In this document: positions 29,801-58,807 of the stretch, one piece after another
Layout: every line of letters begins with the position of its first letter
How positions within the stretch are numbered: position 1 is the first letter of the stretch
The notes under the pieces: generated by a model
Databases searched by the model: none
The model's input: the letters and a program-made list of their open reading frames with translations, nothing else
What the model was told of the DNA's origin: nothing
Source of the DNA: Nemopilema nomurai
Taxonomy: Eukaryota; Cnidaria; Scyphozoa; Rhizostomeae; Rhizostomatidae
DNA: 64,000 bases
Direction of reading: 5' to 3'
Assembly: GCA_003864495.1 (NCBI GenBank)
Contig: ML133366.1
Location: 1,030,871 to 1,094,870 of the forward strand
Position numbers and translations under genes: made by a program

Positions 29801-30400
29801 ATAAGGTATTGTGTCGCAGTTGCAATCACAGGATTGCAAGATTGCAGTTTGACGGTGTCTCGACGCGGTAATCCACTAAGTTGACAATTCGTCAATCTTA
29901 ACACCGCGAAAGGAACTCTTGCCAGTGTGTTATCGGGCCAAGCGATCGCGGCACGAAACAAACAACACGACATGACACCTTCTAACTTGCCAACGGGCTT
30001 GCCAAGTCCGAAAAAGTTGACATGACAAACATGTTTCGTTGACGGTTTACTCATCCTTTGTCATCATCTTTGTAGCACCCCCGGCCAAATGAATTGACCC
30101 ATCTTACAGCTATTCAAGTCTATGTAGACTCTTTCGTTGTCTAAATGTATTTCTAACTTGCTCTTGAAATGGTTCTGACTCTATTAGAGGAGCCCTGCTT
30201 CTAGCCTAAAAAAACTGGCTATAAATGGGAACAAAAGAAATACCAGGTCAAAACTTTTTCATAATCACGCCTCATATTCAGTAGCGATCTTTAATTTGTT
30301 TGTGATCTTGCTTGTTCTAGAAATTTTAACGGCACCGTGAACAAGAGAACAATGTGAGAATGAAGGAAAACCAAATTAAAGATCATTCATCATCATCCAC
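26900..30400. other. Low-information stretch between GC-rich inverted repeats
   Basis: No supported gene. AT-rich, with scattered short frames and a degenerate third copy of the GC-rich hairpin motif (GCCCGTGCAATGGGC near 27797). Confidence 0.4.
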
Positions 30401-30404
30401 CACA

Positions 30405-30495
30405 CAATAGAAATACATAAGCCCCCAAAACCCCGTTGCGCGGGCTTAAATCCCCTTCTGTGGGAGAGGAATTGCCCCTTAAAACTACTCCATAA
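30405..30495 (-). repeat. GC-rich inverted-repeat pair, right copy
   Basis: Contains AGCCCCCAAAACCCCGTTGC and GCGGGCTTAAATCCCCTTCT, the reverse complement of the 26.1-kb copy with few mismatches. Confidence 0.75.
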
Positions 30496-31410
30496 ATATT
30501 AAAATGTCAACAGTTGTGTCTTTGTTTTTAAAAAGGTAGTTCTCGTTTGTTCTTTTGCCTCTTCACGGATGCGCTGGCTAGGTGCACTCTGAGGAAATGT
30601 TCTGAAAAGAAAAAAAAATCGTTACACAAGAAATTCGTTCTTAGGAAGGAAAACAAAGTTTGGCTAGAATAATCTTTAAAATGGCAACTATTACTATATG
30701 TTGAATCCTGTTCAATACATTTTTGGGAAATGGTTGGGAATGTTGGGATTGTTTGCTTTCCTTCGACAGTGCACCCTTACCTTTTTTCCTTCCAAAGAAG
30801 AGTTTGAAATACAGCTTGCAAAACTACTAATGTCTATATGCAGAGAAAAGTTGAATTTGTTGCCGGATGCATTAGTGAAAAGCCTGAACACCACGTCAAG
30901 GGGCATCCTTTGTTCAAGGTTTCCTTTTTTAATGGCAGTTTATTTGGGAAATTTTCTATTGAATAGTTCCTTCTAATAACTATAAACACCATGTTAGGGA
31001 AATTTGGGAGTTGGGGAGTTAAACTGCCATTGAGCAAAGGAACTACACCTTCCCATAGGCAACATCGGGGAAGATGTCAAGCATAACTCAAAAACTGTTC
31101 CATGAAGAAATGTATTGAATAGAGCAGTAGAAGAGGAGTAGAAATACAGAGTAGTCTAGTGTTGAAAGAAAAGGAAGAGAAGAACAGTATAAATAATGAT
31201 CATGTTGGGGCTCACTGAGTACACTATTTTAGTGTTTAGACAGAAAATATGGATCCAGGGGTATCAGGATCAAAGATCAAGATACCCCATGGGTGAGTGC
31301 AACACAGTGTAGCACTCACCTCCTATACATTTCGGTGGATCGGGAGCCCCAAGCATGTATAGGCGCCTGCTGATCAAGAGTGATCAATCTTGGGATGATC
31401 AAAATTATAC

Positions 31411-32120
31411 TTTATTTGAATTAGTGCACTATCATTCAGTAGAAAAGATATGAGTATGGGTCAGAAGGTATCAGAATTACAGCCAAGTAGTCTGGCAATG
31501 AAGGATAGAACATGCTGAACAGTAGCGTGGAAGATGTAGCTCAACTATTAAGAAATAGATACAGAAGAAGAAATTACAATCAAGAGAAGAAAAGTATAAA
31601 TAATGATCATGTGAGGCTCACTGAGTAGTTTATTTGAATTAGTGCACTATCATTCAGTAGAAAAGATATGAGTATGGGTCAGAAGGTATCAGAATTACAG
31701 CCAAGTAGTCTGGCAATGAAAGGATAGAACATGCTGAACAGTAGCGTAGAAGATGTAGCTCAACTATTAAGAAATAGATACAGAAGAAGAAATTACAATC
31801 AAGAGAAGAAAAGTATAAATAATGATCATGTGAGGCTCACTGAGTAGTTTATTTGAATTAGTGCACTATCATTCAGTAGAAAAGATATGAGTATGGGTCA
31901 GAAGGTATCAGAATTACAGCCAAGTAGTTGGCAATGAAAGGATAGAACATGCTGAACAGTAGCGTAGAAGATGTAGCTCAACTATTAAGAAATAGATACA
32001 GAAGAAGAAATTACAATCAAGAGAAGAAAAGTATAAATAATGATCATGTGAGGCTCACTGAGTACTTTATTTGAATTAGTGCACTATTATTCAGTAGAAA
32101 AGATATGAGTAGGGTTGGAG
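31411..32120. repeat. 218-219-bp tandem repeat, 3.2 copies
   Basis: Units start at 31411, 31629, 31848 and 32066 (partial) with TTTATTTGAATTAGTGCACT. They are nearly identical, so the array is young. A partial unit end also occurs at about 31165-31220. The array abuts the 3' side of the Helitron. Confidence 0.93.
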
Positions 32121-32203
32121 GGTATCAGGATTAGATCACCTAAATGATATCCAAGTGTGGCGTGCAACAAAATGTGTGCATGGAGGTCTATCAGTTTAAT
32201 GGA

Positions 32204-35200
32204 TCATGGGGCATGGGGCTTACTGCAAAACTTCAGGGTAGACAACATTCTTTGTTTTCTGTCCTTCTGGTAGCATGACTTTAATGCCAGCAAATGACTT
32301 AGCCCTTGACATGGCAACGTAGAGTTGGCCATGACTGAAGACAGGCTCAGGTAGATAAACACCAACATACCTAATGACTGGCCTTGGGCTTTGTTGATTG
32401 TGAGACAGTAAGCTAGTCTCACTGGAAACTGGACTCTTGCAATATTGATAGGTAGGGCTGTATCTTGTGATGACATTGTGATTTTGGGTATCATCACATA
32501 CTCACCTCTATGCTCATTTCCTATAATTTCTGCGCAAATAACATGGCGTTGTAAATCTCTTACTATGAGACGGGTGCCATTACAGAGTCCTCTTTTTGGA
32601 TTGATGTTCCTTAATAGGATAACAGTTGCACCAATCTAGAAAAGAAAATTCTTTATTAGAAGTTGAATTTGGAGATTTATCTATGATGGAAAATGACAGA
32701 CACATTTATAAACATTTGAATTTGCAAAATTATCAACAGTAAGGTCTCAATAGAGTTTGAAGTAAATATTTGAAGACAAATACCTTGAGCTGCAACTTGT
32801 GAAGTGGCATTCCTCCAGGTGTTTGTGCATTGAGAAATTCAATTGGATATGCTGCAGCTTCTAGGGTCCTCACTGATTACCCTGTCTGTACTGAGGTATG
32901 TGTGCATAGGTGTTTGCAATCTATCAAGCACCAGCTCATTGATGCGGTGAGTGAACTGATTCTTGGGAGTCAAGCAGCAGCGTTCTGACATTGTTCCAGG
33001 ATCTAGCATTAGGTTTGGCTGTCCTGGTTGTGTTGGTGGATACAAAAAGCTCACCAGCTCATTGAGTGAAGGTAGCAATATGTTTTCTGGTAAGGTGACT
33101 TGGTCAAGGTCATCATGTGGCTCCTCACCATTGCCAAGTCTTAACAGCCAGTCAGCAAAATGCCTGTACTGTTCATCACGTGTGGCTCTCATGTTTACAT
33201 GAAGTTGAAACTTGTTGAAGTGTTGCCACAGAGGAGAATTCTTCAAGCTTTCTTGGACAATGCGTTCTCTACCTGCTCTAAGAACAACTGGGAGAACCTG
33301 TCTGAAATCACCTCCAAGAAACATATACTTACCTCCAAAAGGTTGGTCAGTTTGTGTAATATCTCTCAAGAGAATGTCAACTGCTTTCAAAGCATTTGCA
33401 GGAATCATGAAGCCTCATCCCAGATAAAGAGAGAGGTTTCTAAAAGCTTCTGAGCTCTTGCGCTTTGACGTTTAATGTTACAAGTGGAATCTGGCAGTAA
33501 TGGAATAGGAATCTGGAAAGTTGAATGAGCTGTAGCTCCATTAATCAACAATGTGCCAGCTATCCCAGAATATGCAACACATTTTACTTTCACACCTAAG
33601 GCTTGAAGGTTGTGCACTAATGTGTTGTAAAGAAATGTCTTACCTGTGCCTGCTGGACCATCCACAAAGTAGCAGTTTTGTTCAGATGCTGTTTGTATAG
33701 CATTCATGACGGTGTTGTGAATGTGAAGTTGGTTGTCATTAAGAAGCTGCAGCATTTCTGCTCCCTGTTCTTGCTCACGGATGACATCAATATCTTCATC
33801 TGCATTCTGTGGCTGATTCATATGACAGTTGAATTTTGTGAGAAGTTGTGGACTGTAAGGAACAACCCAAGAGTCATTAACCATGTGGTGACGTAGCTGT
33901 GCCAGGTGCTGTCCTCTACGTCTGTACAAAGGATATCCATTGACATTTAATTCTGTCTCCTGGACCAATGCTTTGGGGAAGTCCTTTTTGCATTGACCAT
34001 CCTGCATGCACACATAATGGGGGTCAAGTTGACCACATGGCCCATGAATCATGTGCTTCTTGACAACTTCATGTAAATGTGCATTCTGTTGTGGATCTGG
34101 AATTTCTGCAGACACCAACATATCAACATCCTCTGCTGTACGTGGTTTGTCGGCATCCAAAAGAAACAGAACCATTTGTGCATGTGGTAAACCCCTTTTC
34201 TGGAACTCAATTGTGTAAACATATGCAATCACATGTCCTAAAACATGTCTCTGAAGCAGGTCACACAAAAGTTCCTTCAGCTTCAGGTGAAAAACACGAC
34301 TGACAATATCTGGCCTGTCATTTGCTGTTTGGTGTGGCAAGATGTTTTCTTGTACCTCAGGCCAGTTTGGGTTAGCAGTCATGGTCAGGAAAATGTCAGG
34401 CTTACCATACTTGGTAACAATTGTCATTGCATCTTGGTAATTCTGATAAATTGATCTTGTGCTCCCTTCAAAGGTGGCAGGTAGAATCACAATGCGACCA
34501 ACGTTTGCATCTTCGGCCTGTGCACGCCTTTCGACGTGATCCATAAGGCCTTGGTAAGATTCCACCCTCATTTGAGTTTGATGCGTTCTTATGTATGTCA
34601 GTTGATTTCCCTCAATCTTTGTGTACGCATCAACCAAGTATTGTTGAAACAGCAATCTGGAGCAATGAATTGCCGAGAAATCCTCACGGACGGCAATGCG
34701 GTATGCATAAAACTCATTCAAAGAGATTCACTCTCTTTGGTTGCGTCCGCGAGCAGCACCTTGTTGTCGGTTGCGTTGGAGATCAATGTTCCATCCAAAA
34801 TCTCCATGAAAGAACAACAAAGGATAAGTCATTGGATCAGCATTGGGAGACGTAATTTTGATTTTTTGTGTGTTGTTGTCAGCAACATTAAAAACGGTAA
34901 TGTCTCGATTAGCTGGATCGGGGGTGCCCCCTCGTCTCCCACGTAAACTGCAGCGATTTCCGTTGCTGTAGGATTGTCATAACGGCGATCCTGGAAAGGT
35001 CGACGCGCAATGATCATCCTCACTTGCGGTACGGGTTTGTTGTTTGCGGCTGCAGCGTCACGTTGTTGTTGTAAAACTTGCCCCATATTCCTGAATTGTC
35101 TTGCATAAGGATTAACAGCCATTAGTTCATCCTGTAGAAGCTGCAAGACATCAGGTCGCAGGTGCGCGTTTCTTGGGTCGTGAATTCGCTCCTGCAATGC

Positions 35201-50057: not shown

Positions 50058-51284
50058 GTGAGTAGGATAAATCGTCATTGAGTTTTAAAGTTAAAAATTC
50101 CGTATTCGCTTTGCATTGTGGCTGTTTTCAGGTACCATAACCTGATTAAAGTTTTCCAAACGTTTTGTGGGCAAAGTTAAAATATGACTTGTCAAAACGA
50201 AAACGGCCAGGGGTTGGTTTATATTTTGATTGTTATTAATTAAACTTAAACTTGTACTCCAGCAAGTTATTTCGTACTGACTTGAGAAGATGTGGAGGAT
50301 TAAAAATAACAAAATATTTTTTGCCTCTTGTTTCAAAATAAGGCTTTTCCACAGAAACACCTTGGTTATTTGCAAAGGAAAGAAAGTTGGAAATCTGGCC
50401 ACTTCTTATGGAAAGAACTGTCAACCCCATTGCCTCTAGGTGGATAAGTGCTTCACTGATAATGCCCTTCAATCTGTCTGATGAACAAGATTCATTTAGG
50501 AGGAAATAGGCAACAGGTTGCTTCCAGTTTTTGTTGCAAGAAGGCCAGAAGAATTATTATCTCCATAATCTTCTGTGCCAATCATAGAATCCTTGGAGAT
50601 ATCATAGAACTAATGATTTTTCAAGGATATTTCATCCATTAAAAGAGAATAGATTATTGCACCAGGGGAAAGTGAAGCTAGCAGCTTCTTTGTAAAACCA
50701 GCTTCTGATGACAGGTGAAAAAGTTTGGATAAAAACCTTATGCCATTCCACTAATGTTATATAATGTCAAAGCCCATGCTTTAAAATTATTATCAAACTT
50801 TTCCTTTTAGATTTTGAGATAGAGAACTTAAGCTGTTGCTTCAAAAAGCGCACAAGATCAGGAGAAATTATTCCATCTAGCAGTTTAAGTGTTTTTTGTG
50901 TCCTCTTTGCTTTGCTTATTTGTCCTATTCGCACAGTTGTAGTCTTGTTCAATTTGTGGGACAATCTACGAAGCTGTTGAAACTTTGATCTTAAAGTGGT
51001 TATGACATGTTTTTCAAGATATTGGGTTTCTTCCTTTCCCAAAAAATTTAAGCTTTTCTGGTTAGTTTGATGCCAAATTTTCCAAGATATAACGTTCCAA
51101 ACTATATTTAATTTTTTTTAAAAAGTACTGTGTGTGGGACGTTTTCAAAATTAAACATGGGCGGCGCGTGACGTCATAAGTAGGACACTTTCGGGATGTT
51201 AACATTTTGAACAGACATAGGCCCTAGTGCAGCGTGTGATTTCATTCGTGTCGCGAGAAGATAGTTTTAATAAGCAACACTGCA

Positions 51285-52295
51285 ATGGCTTCAAGTGATT
51301 CAAACGACAGTATCAGAACGGTATCTGATGGCGATATCAGTAGTGAATGTTCAAGCGGAGGCGATTACGGAATTGTGAACATGGGGGCAAATCTTCCTTA
51401 TCAAGACGAACCTCTCGCCATTCCTGGCCATTTTTTAACTTCGAAGAAGACAGAGACGGAATCCCACGCGATGTTTTGGAAGCCAGGTCTGAGAATAGAA
51501 TCGCGGTTGCAGACTGGTATGTTTAGCTTAAATTATTCAACATTTCCAAATTTTAGTTGATTTGTGTAAATTATTTTATAAAATGCATGTCATATCATTA
51601 ACTTTTAGGCCATTCACCCTAGCGTATTTTTTATTCAGGTGTAATTGTAACGGTTGCAAAACTGAGCACTTGGTTGGGGCTCTAGAATTTCGTTGCTGCC
51701 AAGAAGTGAATGAAGCAGGTGGAAAGTTGGTGTTTGAGGGTCGAGAGGACATCAGCTGTTTCACTCGACACGAAGACTTGGTTGCAATGACAAATGCTCT
51801 TGTGCTGACTCAAGTTGGACCATTGCTGAAGGATAGCAGTGGCCGTTCTTATAAACAACGCACAGGGCAAAGCAAGAATGAGTAAGATCCATCGAACAAC
51901 ATTATTCAGTTATAACAATCAAAAGCATGTTAAAGGAATGCATTTCAAACTTCTAATTACTTCAAGTATGGGAAAATGATCCACCTCTGAATAATAATTG
52001 CCCTTTGTTGAAATTTTGCCAATAAAGACAAAAATTCGAAACTGAGTAATACTTATCTAGCCTGATTCTTTCAGGAATATTTTGCAAGGGGCCAAAATGA
52101 TCATAAATAGACAGTTTTTATTATTATTTCAGGTATCTAAGGGCAGTTGCATACCGCTGGATTGCCAGGTGGCTATTTGGTTACATTGGATGGGACAACC
52201 GAAGAGCCCTTCCTGCTTGTGTTTATGAGCATATTCGCTCTAAATTTCCATCGCACCAAAATACAGGGTTTGCCCAAGCACTGGGGCAACAATGA
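51285..52295 (+). pseudogene. P2X7-like ballast-domain gene inside the Kolobok, three exons, one-base frameshift
   Basis: Exons 51285-51516, 51639-51881 and 52133-52295 have GT-AG junctions and matching phases. Exon 1 starts MASSDSNDSIRTVS with an acidic N-terminus and LPYQDEPLA. At a T6 run (51431-51436) the register is lost; one more T would restore FNFEEDRDGIPRDVLEA up to the W split TG|G. Exon 2 carries CNCNGCKTE, then EFRCCQEV and SCFTRHEDL, the Cys/His cluster of the P2X7 cytoplasmic (ballast) domain. Exon 3 reads YLRAVAYRWIARWLFGYIGW, then RRALPACVYEHIRSKFPS, the typical C-terminus. No channel segment is present. In vertebrate P2X7 this domain binds zinc and GDP; its job here is unknown. 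Confidence 0.75.
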
Positions 52296-52855
52296 GATGG
52301 AAAGGTTGGTATCTTCTTTTGCCATTTCAAGATGCTTTTTCCCAAATTTTATGCTGTTTCTGTTCTTGAAAAACTATGTCTATATGATACCAGTATATAA
52401 AGTTACAATTTTGTTTAACAAAGCATTAAACAAATTTTATTACTTTTTGATCATATACAGACTGTCACAGGGTTATAATTTGTATGAGTTGAACATTTTC
52501 ATCAAAAATCTTTATGTTCATAATGACGGCGACATCCATTGAATTACTGCTCATCAGGACAATGATCACGAGGATGCCCTTCTTTCAATCGTTTGCATTT
52601 CTTGCACTTTGGTTTTGCCCTTGTTTGCTTTGGGTTGGCACTTTCATTTGTGTCCAAAGACTCTATGAGTTGATGTTGTTCCGTCTCTGTTGATGATAAA
52701 ACAATATGTCATAGGCTGTCAGAGGGAATGTAAATATTGCTCTTGATCAGATTAGGCTTCAGTTTATGAAACAAAAAGCCAATCATTATTCCACTGAGCC
52801 AAACAAGTATTATGACTATTGGAATAAGTATTTATATCTATATCTGTCTCAATGT

Positions 52856-55800
52856 TTAATCAACAATATCTAGTTCTTCTAGATAGAGATGTTGTAACTG
52901 ATTATTCCTTATAATAGACATACCACTTGGGAAAAGTTGAGTGACAGTTGATTTCCTTTGCATTTGGTGACTAATTGCCTCTTCTCTGCTTCGTCTATTT
53001 TCAAACTGGCTTGTCAGTGACTCTGGGGCGTCTTGTTTATATTTTGCAAATGTTGCAGCCAGTTCATGTTTTTGGGTTCCAATCATAACTTCCTTGATAC
53101 TATTTACATAATATAAAAAAAACATGCAAGTTTGATATGTCTGACTTTCCTTCATATGAACCGATATATCTTCCTGTCTGCTTGGCTCATGATTAATTAT
53201 ATAATATGCTTACACAGATCAGGAATGCAGTGGTAAAAGAAAATATACAAGATTGAGTGAAAGTTGTGAGACAATGAACAATGGTCATTAAAGAAGCTAT
53301 TCAACAAAGGAGAAGAAAATGAACCTTGCAGCTTCAAATATGAATAACTTACCATACGTTGGAGGAATTGCTACTTCGCGAACTACCTCATCACCAAGTT
53401 TATATTTCGGATATATTACATTATAGTATACATCTCCAGTTTCATTTCTACGTTTTGCTCTATTTACATTTTCGTTGAAGTGCAGGATGGCCAGTGCATG
53501 TCTATAATAAAAGAAATAATGTCATGCTAAGTCATGAAAATTAAACTTTTCCCCTCCATCACTTAACAGAGAAGTTGCAGTCATAGTTTTGTGTTTGGTA
53601 GATGGTTACCTGCATTTTGTGCCAAGCCATGAGAAGTGTGTCATTTTTGGATGCCAGTGATTCAGTAGGGAATGGAACTCCTCGAGACAGCTTGTCTGGG
53701 CATCTGATGACAACTTCTTTATGTCACCCAAGATTCTCCTGTTCATCAGTATCAGATTTAATCGATCATAAACTGCTGTACCTTTGGAAAAGAATGGAAG
53801 AATGAATTTGTGTCCTGAATTACAAGAACTTTGATTTACAAGGCATAAACAGATTTTTAGAATACAAGCATCAGCTGCAAAAGCATCAATTCCTTAATAT
53901 TGCTACTGAGTCTCCAGACAGTCACCCTTTACCTGAAAATCACTAACAGATCAACAACTTGATAGCTAAGTCTTAACCTACAAAGTTGATGCCATTGAAG
54001 ACCACTTTTTACCTTTGTATATCCAATCACGGGGTTCAATTTCAGCATGTGCACATTCTTTGAAAAGCTGAGTGCTTGTCTGTGACGTGACGTGCAAATG
54101 ACTTCCATTTTGCCAGAATTAGCTCACCAAATCCTTGTTTTGTCGATGTGGCACACCAGTAGAGATGCTTTTCGATCCCTTTTATCCATGCTGTGATAGG
54201 TTCATTGCCCTTCTCCTTGCTGGCCTTCAGAAGCTGTTTGGTGATACTTTTTGATACATGCCACAGGTCGTGATAATGATTTGTTTCAGGCTGTGATGTT
54301 CTGCTCCACTTTGCAATGCCTGTGTGACGATCACTGATGAAGTTTTTTATGGTAAGGCCCGTATTTTGTATGAAATGGAAACATTTTTGTCCACCCAATA
54401 GTTCCATTTTACTGCTGCCACCAGCCTCATTTGCCTGATAATTAGAAGTTTTTTATTATATTTACTTTGCCAAGGATTTGACTACCCAAAGACATTATGC
54501 CACTGTACACAATATCAATTTTTGTAAATTGAAGATAATTTTTTCCAATGGTTAAGTTGCAACATGTATGAATAAGATTATACAGCCTTCCCTTACTGGA
54601 TATAGCAATCTTATCAATGTCCACTATGACATTTTGAAAATGGTTTGGAGTTTAAAATGTGTACACTAAGGCCTCTGAATCTGGAAAGTGCTTGGGACTA
54701 AATATATGGGCTCAGTTTCTTGAAGTATAAAAAACAATGTCAAATATTTTCAACAAAACTGAGTTTCATATTGGTATTTCATATTGGTAGGCTCTATTTC
54801 ACATTAGTTGTTTAAAAACTAAATACTATTGTTGCCTTGAATGTGAGCTACAGTTTTAAATATATTTGTATATTTTATTAAATACTACCTGTACTACTTC
54901 AAAGTGAATTAGTTTTGACATTGAATTGCAGAACATGGTGTATGACCCATATTTGGCACTGTGACCCATGGAGTCAAATCGTCCGTCTCCTGACCACTGT
55001 GCATCCTTAATGCTCTTTATTTTTTCAATCAATGAATCTCGATTTCTTTCCCATTGCAGTAAAACAGATGGAATAAGAAACTGCCTTTGATGCCTGAAGA
55101 AAGTGCGGATTGTTATTGCTGCCAACCTCATGTGCTTGAACATCAAGAACACTTGGCTGATGTTAACGCCTGAAGTTAAAATCCCAAAACTCATCATTAA
55201 ATTACCAGCAGGGATACTTCCAAGCACAAGTGGCTGACTTCTCCACTTAAATTCATTTTTACATTTCTTACATGTCTGTATAACAGTAGCCATTGACCCG
55301 GTTTGTTTGATTGTAACTTCCGGACTATCTTCTTTGCAATTGAAACAGAATTGTTGGAAGATCTGCATCAGCATTCCAAAAAACACAATAAATTTTGGTT
55401 GGTCAACATCCTTAGTGCCAAGTTCACATCTGTAAGGCAAATCAAATTTTTTAGTTTAAAGTCGCTAATGTATTTTAAATTGATAATAGAGAAATACAAC
55501 ATAGTTTTTACTTGCCACGCCAAGAAAAAGTAGTCTGGATTTGCAAAAACTAATCTAGATTTGCAAATACGAGGGACTCATTTTATATTAATGGTTAATA
55601 AGGAATTATTTTCTTTCACAGACCTTTAGCACCCAAAATTGATGCCTAAAATTCAATTTACTTACCTTACAGTATTTTGAGAGTTTTCTTTTGACATATC
55701 TGTTTCTTCATCTGATGAAAATTCGTCCTCCTCCAGACTTGTCCAGTCTGTGTCATTCTCATTAAATTCATCTTCTTCATTATCATCATCCTCATTGTCA

Positions 55801-57110
55801 TCATCACAACCAACAGACAATTCTGAGAATGTTCTCTTTCTTGCCAACGTTGTGTCTTCATTCTCATCACTGCTCTGTTGCTCCAAACTTTGGTCTTTGG
55901 GCAAGCCCTATTTTAAATCAAATTGAATCAATTTACAGAAAAAGATAATCCCAAAAATAGTGGATACATTAACAATCATGTAGAAACTAGAAGAGATTTC
56001 TAAAAAATGGTAATTTGGGGGACCTTGCATTCCCTGGGAGGTACTCTTTTAAAAATTAATTCCCCAGAGGATCATTATCTAGATTTGCAAATACGTTTTT
56101 TCCTCGACCACATTTAAAAAACCAAAATATACAGTGTCAGTATACCGTTTACCTCCACAAATGGTAGCGTTTTCCGAAATATCCCCCTGCTGCCTTCCCC
56201 TCCCTCCCAATTAGTTTCCTTCCGGTTTAAGCTAATAGAAGTAAAAGTAGAAAATTATAAAAATACATATTTTTAAAACTTATTTTTGCACTGTAATTTG
56301 TGCATGTGCAATTTCTAAATTTCTAAATTATAGATGAAGTTGTACGTACACCACTCCTTAAATCCAACAGTTCTTGGAGATCGTTTTTTCGTTTTTTTGC
56401 GTAGTATAATTGTTTTTGAAGTTTGACAATTTTCCTCTGCCTGATATGACATTTATCGCAATCTTTCATGCAAGCCTGTTCACGATTTTCTGCGTTGTAT
56501 ACTGGTACTGGTTCATCATCTGAGTCGCAATTTGGCTGATACGAGTCTGACAAAAACTCACGGACCTCTTTCTCTTCGTTTTTACTGCTATCTTCGTTAT
56601 TAATGTTTCGAATTATCTAAAATAAGAGGAAAAATGAAATTTTGTATTTACTTTTTTATCTTAAACGACTAAGAAAATTACGTTTGAAATATTTTATTTA
56701 ATGTACGAAATGTAAACAATAGGCCATCTTACCTGTCTTTTCCCGCGGTCTGGCAGTTTCTCGTCTTTTTTGCTTTCATTTGCAGCATCCACAGTTGGAA
56801 TAGCATCCGGCTTTAATTTTATCTTCATTCCCAAAGATATCGCCACATCCCGTCGTGTAGTGAAGCAAGAATCTTCGAAATGAACTCCACACAAAATGGC
56901 TTGATTTGACTCGGGAGTCCAATTAGGCCGATGCCGGCGAATGAAGCGTACCCATTTACTGAACCTCTCTGGGTATTTATTTTTATCGGGGAAATGGTGT
57001 ATGGATTGACCGAGTGTGTACTGGCTGTTTCCACAACTAACTCCTCCTGGGCCACCCGCTACACATCGTTTACCGGTGTCACGTTTGATGTATGTTCCTT
57101 TGGTCGCCAT
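52856..57110 (-). pseudogene. Kolobok THAP-DDE transposase gene, eight exons, one frameshift
   Basis: Exons (minus): 57110-56733, 56616-56350, 55907-55666, 55429-54889, 54434-54013, 53781-53610, 53501-53353, 53169-52856; all junctions are GT-AG with agreeing phases. Exon 1 is a THAP domain (CVAGGPGGVSC, FPDKNKY, KWVRFIRRH, ILCGVHFEDSCF). Exon 2 has a CDKCHIRQ motif and coiled coil, exon 3 is very acidic. The DDE core: WSGDGRFDSMGHSAKYG (Asp), NFISDRHTGIAKW (Asp), DLWHVSKSITKQLL, and QTSCLEEFHSLLNHWHPK (Glu). Exon 7 has ILHFNENVNRAK. A register change near 54060-54075, between HVTDKHS and FKECAHAEIE, is the only break. An alternative ATG lies at 57194. Confidence 0.8.
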
Positions 57111-57136
57111 TACGAAAAGACTAACAGCTGATTTTT

Positions 57137-57339
57137 GTGTCCTACTTATTGCGTCATCAGACCACGTGCTTAATTGAAAAAGTTCGCGTGTCATTCAATA
57201 AAACTCTGAACTTTGAAATGGCGTAAAATCAAAACGGATTAATATTTTTGAATTCTGTTTTTTGCTTTTGATTTCAAATGAACAAAAGTTTCAATTTTGG
57301 TAGAAGACTAAGAAATGACGATGAGATGTCATAACCACT
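57137..57339 (-). promoter_or_regulatory. Kolobok right end / transposase promoter region
   Basis: About 200 bp between the right terminus and the THAP-gene ATG. It holds the inverted subterminal block (57137-57154), a TGACGCAATA-like site and CACGTG. The left end mirrors it upstream of the P2X7-like gene, so the two genes may share related promoters. Confidence 0.4.
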
Positions 57340-58807
57340 TTAAGAGACCTTTTATTTTAACTTTCTATGAGTGTTTGATGTTAAATTAAGAGGTGTATGA
57401 GAAGATTGGGTAACTTCAGGCCTAAAACCTTCAACAACAAGAGGAGCACCTGAATAACTGAACTGACGTTGGCCTGAAATAGAAGTATAACAAGTATAAG
57501 AAATTTGAAGAATTAAATAAATGCAAATTGACAAAGAGCTCAATAAATAGTAACAGTAAGCTTTACACAAATGGCATATGTGAGAATAATATTTTTATTG
57601 CTGTTAGTACTTAACCAACAATTGTCTGTTCTACCTTCAGAAATTGGTGTTCCTTTATCTCCTCTGGGGTCCGGGTTCTCTTCGTTGAAAGTATCTATTA
57701 ATAGGAAATCATGTATATACAAAAATTATATTTATTTTGTTGTTGTTAGTCACTATTGGAAATATAATCATGGCCTTTTGTTGCTGCAGTGGGTAACATT
57801 TTTCTGACCTGCATTCTGATATACCAGTGTGTGTGTCAAATATCTGTCCTGATTTAATTGGAAAAGTATATTTGTCAAATGTGGGTGAAAAATAAGTAGA
57901 ATAGACTAACAAGTTATTGAAGCACTTCCAGAAAGAAAAAATGTACCATTAGGAAAGGGTAGATTTTATTATTAAGTAAAAAGTTGCAAAGAAAATCAAA
58001 CAATAGATATACTTGTATCACAAGCAGTACATATCTTGCCATCATGACTTTCAGAATTTACAGGCTGCTCAATTTTTGTTTCTCTGGCAGTACTAAAAGA
58101 GTCAGGAATATTCTTAGTTTAAAACAAGCTGTGAAATTATTTCGTCAACAAAATGACAAAACATTACCATATAAGCATTACAATGAAATAAAAGATCCAA
58201 AAATATTTCTCAAACATACTTTACGGTTTTTGCAGTTGATTCCTTCAATTCAAATTTCATTACAATTCGAAAGGATGGCCAAAGCAAGCAAAAAATAGTT
58301 GCATCAACTCACTTGGTTGACGAAAAGGTAGAGGCCTTTTACTGCCGATCATGGGAGGTGGATTCGGCACATTAAAATTGTCGGTTTTGCGTTCAAGCAA
58401 GGCGTTTACGCTCATTTTTGAATTTGGGCAAAAATTCGGGTTCGAAATGCAAAGAGCATTCGTAACAATTCTTGCTTAGATAGGATGGCGTTTTGTTCAG
58501 CAAGTCGTGTCTTCGGATGCTCTGAACCCATTCACTTCACCTTTAAACAAAAAATTCTAGCTTTATTCTGTCAACTATATAATAGTAACAGATCACGTGA
58601 AATTTTAATGGTCACAAAAAAGGTTTACCTGGTGTTTCCTACAGGTTTATTGATTTAGAGTGTTTCCTACCTGGTGCTGTCTGATGGAAGCCAGAAAAAA
58701 TTCAACTCCGGGTTTGCAACAGCGTTCTTGCTGCATTTCACTGCCGAACAGTAAGCTCCCCTCCTCTTCTTTTTACGCTCTTGTTGTTTGATACCAGTAT
58801 CCGACAT

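Follow-up and report, generated by a model that had tools for sequence, protein, structure and literature searches.

We describe a transposon in a jellyfish genome that carries, next to its transposase gene, a gene for the ballast domain of the P2X7 receptor. The 64,000-nucleotide stretch analysed here (the window) comes from contig ML133366.1 of Nemopilema nomurai and contains, at positions 50995-57339, a DNA transposon of 6,345 bp. Very probably it represents one copy of a Kolobok transposon of the Kol0 type, which would move by cut and paste and has two genes, with KolX, the ballast-domain protein, as a probable zinc-binding accessory protein. KolX was named, and placed in the Kol0 lineage of Kolobok, in the sections on it by Kojima and Bao (2022; PMC9587614), the sole source in the open-licence literature in which we found the name. 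The window element is a new member of this known kind, Kol0 with KolX, and the idea of a transposon-borne ballast gene, put forward for this DNA in a sequence-only reading, is already in print. It is, moreover, an ordinary, broken copy.

The borders of the element are sharply drawn. It starts with AGTGGTTATGACAT and ends with the exact reverse complement, with TTAA immediately outside both, so that perfect 14-bp terminal inverted repeats (TIRs; left, 50995-51008, plus strand, starting 5'-AG; right, 57326-57339, minus strand) lie inside TTAA duplications at 50991-50994 and 57340-57343, just as the sequence-only reading had it. All 14 of 14 base pairs match, with a chance expectation of about 1.3e-6 such matches among 120 nearby TTAA pairs. 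The TTAA duplication, together with an empty site that has a single TTAA, is what is expected of a Kolobok target, and the AG...CT ends of the element agree with the 5'-RR and YY-3' termini that, in the account given in PMC9587614, separate Kolobok from piggyBac. PiggyBac, a TTAA user too, is ruled out by the 5'-AG ends and by the motifs of the transposase.

The empty site was found on contig C56 of the same genome (G000). The left flank (50500-50992) and the right flank (57345-57800) have one other match each, and these are neighbours on C56, where the DNA is continuous across the insertion point with one TTAA and is 99-100% identical to the flanks in the window. The single TTAA in this uninterrupted DNA indicates that the element inserted precisely and duplicated TTAA, and the identity of the flanks indicates that the two gene copies had already split when the insertion took place. 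The sequence interrupted is a P-element-like (THAP9-like) transposase gene (PF21787, minus strand; window 50236-50990 and 57344 onward), and in the C56 copy of that gene, without the insertion, an open frame spans the empty site. The interpretation of C56 as the other haplotype of the window is not supported, since the C56 matches listed for window 30001-34000, a repeat, are misplaced for a haplotype; the empty site is therefore read as another copy of the P-like gene. The repeat itself has at least 71 matches, most of them on C1, C2, C45, C143, C133 and C56, and it is in the same few contigs of G000 that the transposase and KolX matches are concentrated.

Queries of about 300 bases from each end of the element found four places apiece in the genome, a count that includes the window itself as well as incomplete or diverged matches. 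Contig C1 carries a second copy that is 99% identical across the whole element (6.3 kb), with the same ends and its own TTAA pair. The copy on C168 matches 2.4 kb of the left part at 93% identity and has stop codons in KolX, and that on C133 lacks the left part in the stretch examined and is cut off within the transposase gene, next to what looks by eye like the end of a hAT transposase. The ballast gene is in place in the C1 copy, the sole other copy of the whole element (the C133 copy does not reach it), and inside the element the ballast gene showed no insertion borders of its own.

KolX is encoded on the plus strand by three exons (51285-51516, 51639-51881 and 52133-52295), with a start at 51285, and is convergent with the transposase gene; in the C1 copy it has 212 codons. 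The ballast domain PF20478 was matched by exon 3 of the window alone (E 2.3e-6, 28.1 bits) and by the spliced C1 protein (E 7.1e-11, 42.8 bits against a curated cut-off of 23.5), which bears out both the three-exon, plus-strand ballast gene proposed earlier and the presence of the KolX-encoding second gene of Kol0. Exons 1 and 2 of the window gene, searched singly against Pfam, gave no match. Six of the seven ballast cysteines lie in exon 2, and the seventh lies in exon 3 with the stop; all seven are present in the window and C1 versions, and zinc binding is presumed. Twelve KolX relatives were found, cnidarian proteins among them, the nearest being a Rhopilema protein (65% identity, 88% query coverage). 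An alignment of 12 proteins shows five of the seven cysteines to be invariant and the other two nearly so. One further match to exon 2 (58% identity), at G000:C56:658129-658275, lies inside an open frame of 2406 amino acids.

The transposase gene lies on the minus strand, and its predicted THAP domain was confirmed by a Pfam profile search (PF05485, E 9.4e-13), although our model, the borders of which were set by hand, has nine exons instead of the eight first claimed. The THAP domain occupies exon 1 (56733-57111); exon 2 (56347-56616, borders approximate) and an acidic exon 3 (55666-55907) follow. Exon 4 (54889-55429) carries the putative first catalytic D, in GDGRFDS; exon 5 (54013-54434) the putative second D and a DLWH motif; and exon 6 (53610-53782, start approximate) the putative final E, in CLEEF. 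Exon 7 (53353-53501) has a 59% identical counterpart at loci L083 and L084, exon 8 (52924-53099) has approximate borders, and exon 9 (52544-52690, start approximate) encodes a Cys/His tail and the stop. Judged by eye, GDGRFDS, SDRHTG, DLWH and CLEEF would provide the Kolobok DDD/E residues with C/DxxH between the second D and the last E. As for the zinc finger that a Kolobok would have downstream of C/DxxH, some C/H positions are visible in exon 5, the exon in which the window copy has a deletion. The Pfam transposase matches were Mutator and MULE alone, both below the cut-off. Among 6341 candidates, 57 transposase relatives reached E 0.001 or better, with up to 99% query coverage; the top ones belong to corals and jellyfish, several of them containing THAP, and fish, lancelet, ticks and worms account for a few others.

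Whether KolX belongs to the transposon can be judged from the arrangement of the two genes across the genome. Matches were gathered into 122 ballast clusters (pooled from the best 150 of 155 KolX matches and 44 PF20478 matches) and 116 transposase clusters (from 150 exon 4 matches); as the exon 4 search scored 150 of 225 candidates and the KolX search 150 of 335, some partners were missed. Sixty of the 122 ballast clusters are convergent with a transposase cluster within 6 kb, and four are divergent and two tandem. When positions and strands were randomized within each contig's span, the number of convergent clusters was 2.7 on average and at most 10 over 1000 shuffles, a control that overstates the independent cases because copies of one family are not independent. 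Families that share about 29-67% identity with the window in transposase exon 4 have the window-like layout too. Seven ballast loci were viewed further (L009-L013, L024 and L037), six of which had counted as unpaired and one, L024, as convergent. In five of them, pieces of Kolobok-type transposases lie convergent on the far side, with E 8e-9 or better for L009, L013 and L024 and E 0.003 for L010; L012 is assigned only via its likeness to L009 and L010. On the far side of L011 no transposase pieces were seen, and at L037 a THAP exon lies on the same strand as the ballast gene.

KolX is also conserved between families. The proportion of synonymous differences (pS) is 0.79-0.91, which is saturated, and that of nonsynonymous differences (pN) is 0.27-0.31 (8 pairs from five loci in three families), close to the values for transposase exon 4 between families (pS 0.72-0.85 and pN 0.21-0.32; 14 pairs, six loci). 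These results bear on the view that KolX was originally a host gene, which a single Kolobok family picked up and has since taken along as a passenger. P2X7 and Nanor, in which the domain occurs in host genes too, would be in keeping with such a capture, as would the 56 of 122 ballast clusters for which no transposase was found within 6 kb. The convergent layout, however, recurs across the diverged families just described, and with ballast genes of two further clades (B and C, below), and conservation between families is not expected of a passenger; we therefore hold this view to be extremely improbable. Host DNA trapped by chance is ruled out by the recurrence of the layout, and the suggestion that the second gene is the transposon's own is supported by its recurring position and by its conservation.

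Several observations, besides the non-independence of copies in the shuffle, nevertheless weigh against a two-gene Kolobok with KolX as its accessory. Neither gene is intact in the window: compared with the C1 copy, the frame of KolX is broken in exon 1, and compared with C1 and C133, a short deletion in exon 5 of the transposase changes the frame. In the C1 copy KolX is open, and the transposase is broken as well: its frame changes, it contains a stop, and the presumed catalytic E is altered. Since both window genes are broken, a point that adds to the earlier account of this DNA, nothing shows that the window copy makes either protein. Across the genome, 6 of the 122 ballast clusters are near a transposase in another orientation and 56 have none within 6 kb, and 51 of the 116 transposase clusters are without a ballast gene within that distance. 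A high-copy element of about 1.5-1.6 kb (17 loci: L020-L023, L025-L036 and L038) has a KolX-like gene and no visible transposase; TTAA stands at both ends in 15 of the 15 loci with ends printed, its TIRs start AGGAGAACTGACACGC, and the KolX-like gene is broken in the translated copy. Within families the changes look unselected, with 0 synonymous and 5 nonsynonymous between the window and C1, pS 0.029 and pN 0.030 between the C1 and C168 copies, and 0 synonymous and 2 or 3 nonsynonymous for L083-L084 and L086-L087. Finally, we know of no experiment on KolX. The missing partners may partly reflect limited search depth and decayed copies, and one-gene elements may exist as well; the unbiased changes within families are as expected of copies decaying after insertion. 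The ratio of nonsynonymous to synonymous rates (dN/dS) within families was discarded as a test of selection, as there are too few changes.

If the element is a Kol0 Kolobok, its THAP-DDE transposase would bind the ends, excise the element and reinsert it at TTAA, and KolX, produced from a start of its own close to the left end, would help the element at some step. The window copy would have landed in one of two near-identical P-element-like genes and later have been broken in both of its own genes. For the step itself our best guess is that KolX acts in trans as a cofactor of the transposase-DNA complex, although we are far less sure of this than of what the element is. It is possible, if doubtful, that KolX instead benefits the element in a way separate from the transposition reaction, for instance by regulating transcription or by countering host silencing. 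A cysteine-rich, presumably zinc-binding domain would suit such a role, and Nanor was suggested to act in transcription in the passage on it in PMC7016195. Both gene starts also adjoin matching subterminal repeats: the left arm (51169-51188, plus strand, 174 bp from the end) contains the 8-mer TGACGTCA and is 90% complementary to the right arm (57137-57156, minus strand, 183 bp from the end). These repeats could equally be binding sites for the transposase, however. The window family and all six of the L014-L019 loci have the 8-mer TGACGTCA upstream of their KolX match, and 16 of the 17 L020-type loci have it twice, once towards each end. It is absent from L009-L013, L082-L084, L086 and L087, and it also occurs at three unrelated places in the window; it may be a promoter element or a transposase-binding site.

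A more specific form of the cofactor reading can be imagined because P transposase uses GTP, in positioning the transposon ends (as outlined in PMC7776569), and because the P2X7 ballast binds guanine nucleotides, with five rat residues named for GDP binding in the relevant part of PMC7016195. KolX could then be a detached, guanine-nucleotide-dependent subunit of the Kolobok complex, the in-trans counterpart of the GTP domain built into P transposase, and the P2X7 ballast could have been inherited from such a cofactor via clade B. Drawn by analogy, this reading is in our view unlikely. Two of the five residues, R546 and R578, are the same in aligned KolX, and H547, R574 and K583 differ.

The relationship to P2X7 is of particular interest, as the sequence-only reading had proposed an element of this kind as the mobile source of a ballast domain of obscure origin. 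That origin is no longer obscure, since derivation from KolX has been published: the short account of PMC9587614 concludes that a fusion with KolX gave rise to P2X7 and regards Nanor as a probable domesticated KolX. Rump et al. (2020; PMC7016195) had followed the ballast domain across animals, as PTHR36981, in a main text without the words transposon, transposase or transposable. A Kolobok source thus holds in outline, but the gene in the window is a poor candidate. In trees of 29 and 28 ballast domains, clade A (support 100/99 and 100/100, respectively) consists of the window KolX, represented by the C1 copy, together with two other loci and eight proteins from the database. P2X7 groups with clade B (94/88 and 98/93, respectively), among whose members are L010 and a protein from Hydractinia that bears the name P2X purinoceptor 7-like; clade C (L014, L015 and L018) is placed between. 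L009 joined P2X7 in the 29-domain tree with a long-branch warning and was dropped from the 28-domain tree, where P2X7 was still with clade B. The trees are unrooted, contain no Nanor sequence, and took 8 of the 12 KolX relatives (P0004, P0006, P0011 and P0012 were left out), 9 of the 20 proteins of another set and 2 of the 4 distinct P2X7 sequences.

Could the element type of the window itself have been the source of the P2X7 ballast? It has the same domain, with seven cysteines kept, and a Kol0 origin has been published. P2X7 is nevertheless with clade B and not with clade A, although a grouping of A with P2X7 was only borderline rejected in the 28-domain tree (p 0.052), as was C with P2X7 (p 0.054); and the best match to P2X7 in the PDB had E 0.0094 for window-type KolX and E 4.2e-14 for the clade B open reading frame at L010. 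We consider such a descent highly unlikely; judged by these comparisons, the window KolX is not the type nearest to P2X7 and resembles it only weakly. Several clade B copies are also convergent with Kolobok-type transposases, and members of A, B and C all adjoin such transposases, which fits an origin of the P2X7 ballast in transposon-borne genes, by way of a clade other than that of the window. Upstream of the clade B frame at L010, a cysteine-rich segment (794-1078) had no Pfam match at E 0.1.

Among known systems the closest is Kol0 Kolobok, represented by Kolobok-1_XT, which, as described in PMC9587614, shares with the window element the TTAA duplication, the 5'-RR and YY-3' ends, and a DDD/E transposase accompanied by KolX, with cnidarian hosts listed. 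The window element, likened to it by this published description, is a jellyfish family; the present analysis counts the convergent layout across a single genome and places two more ballast clades next to Kolobok-type transposases. With the P2X7 ballast (ZCD, PF20478) KolX shares the seven cysteines and the arginines aligned to R546 and R578, but it is a separate small transposon protein without the channel part and, in the alignment, without H547, R574 and K583. To our knowledge, P element and THAP9 systems have no KolX; their transposases are like that of the window in combining THAP with an RNase H-type DDE design. They differ in their target duplications, which are of 8 bp in the zebrafish case (PMC7776569, in part). 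Zebrafish Nanor, likened to KolX by its description in PMC9587614, is also a stand-alone ballast protein, although it is a host gene.

The ballast domain is part of an inflammatory receptor, P2X7, and its descent from a transposon rests in print on two short sections of PMC9587614; a 2023 abstract calls the function of the P2X7 ballast unknown. To this the present analysis adds that both genes of the window copy have broken frames and that P2X7 appears nearer to another ballast clade than to the KolX of the window. A genome with many Kolobok families, whose ballast genes fall into three or more clades including one near P2X7, may thus provide a place to test the original role of the domain.

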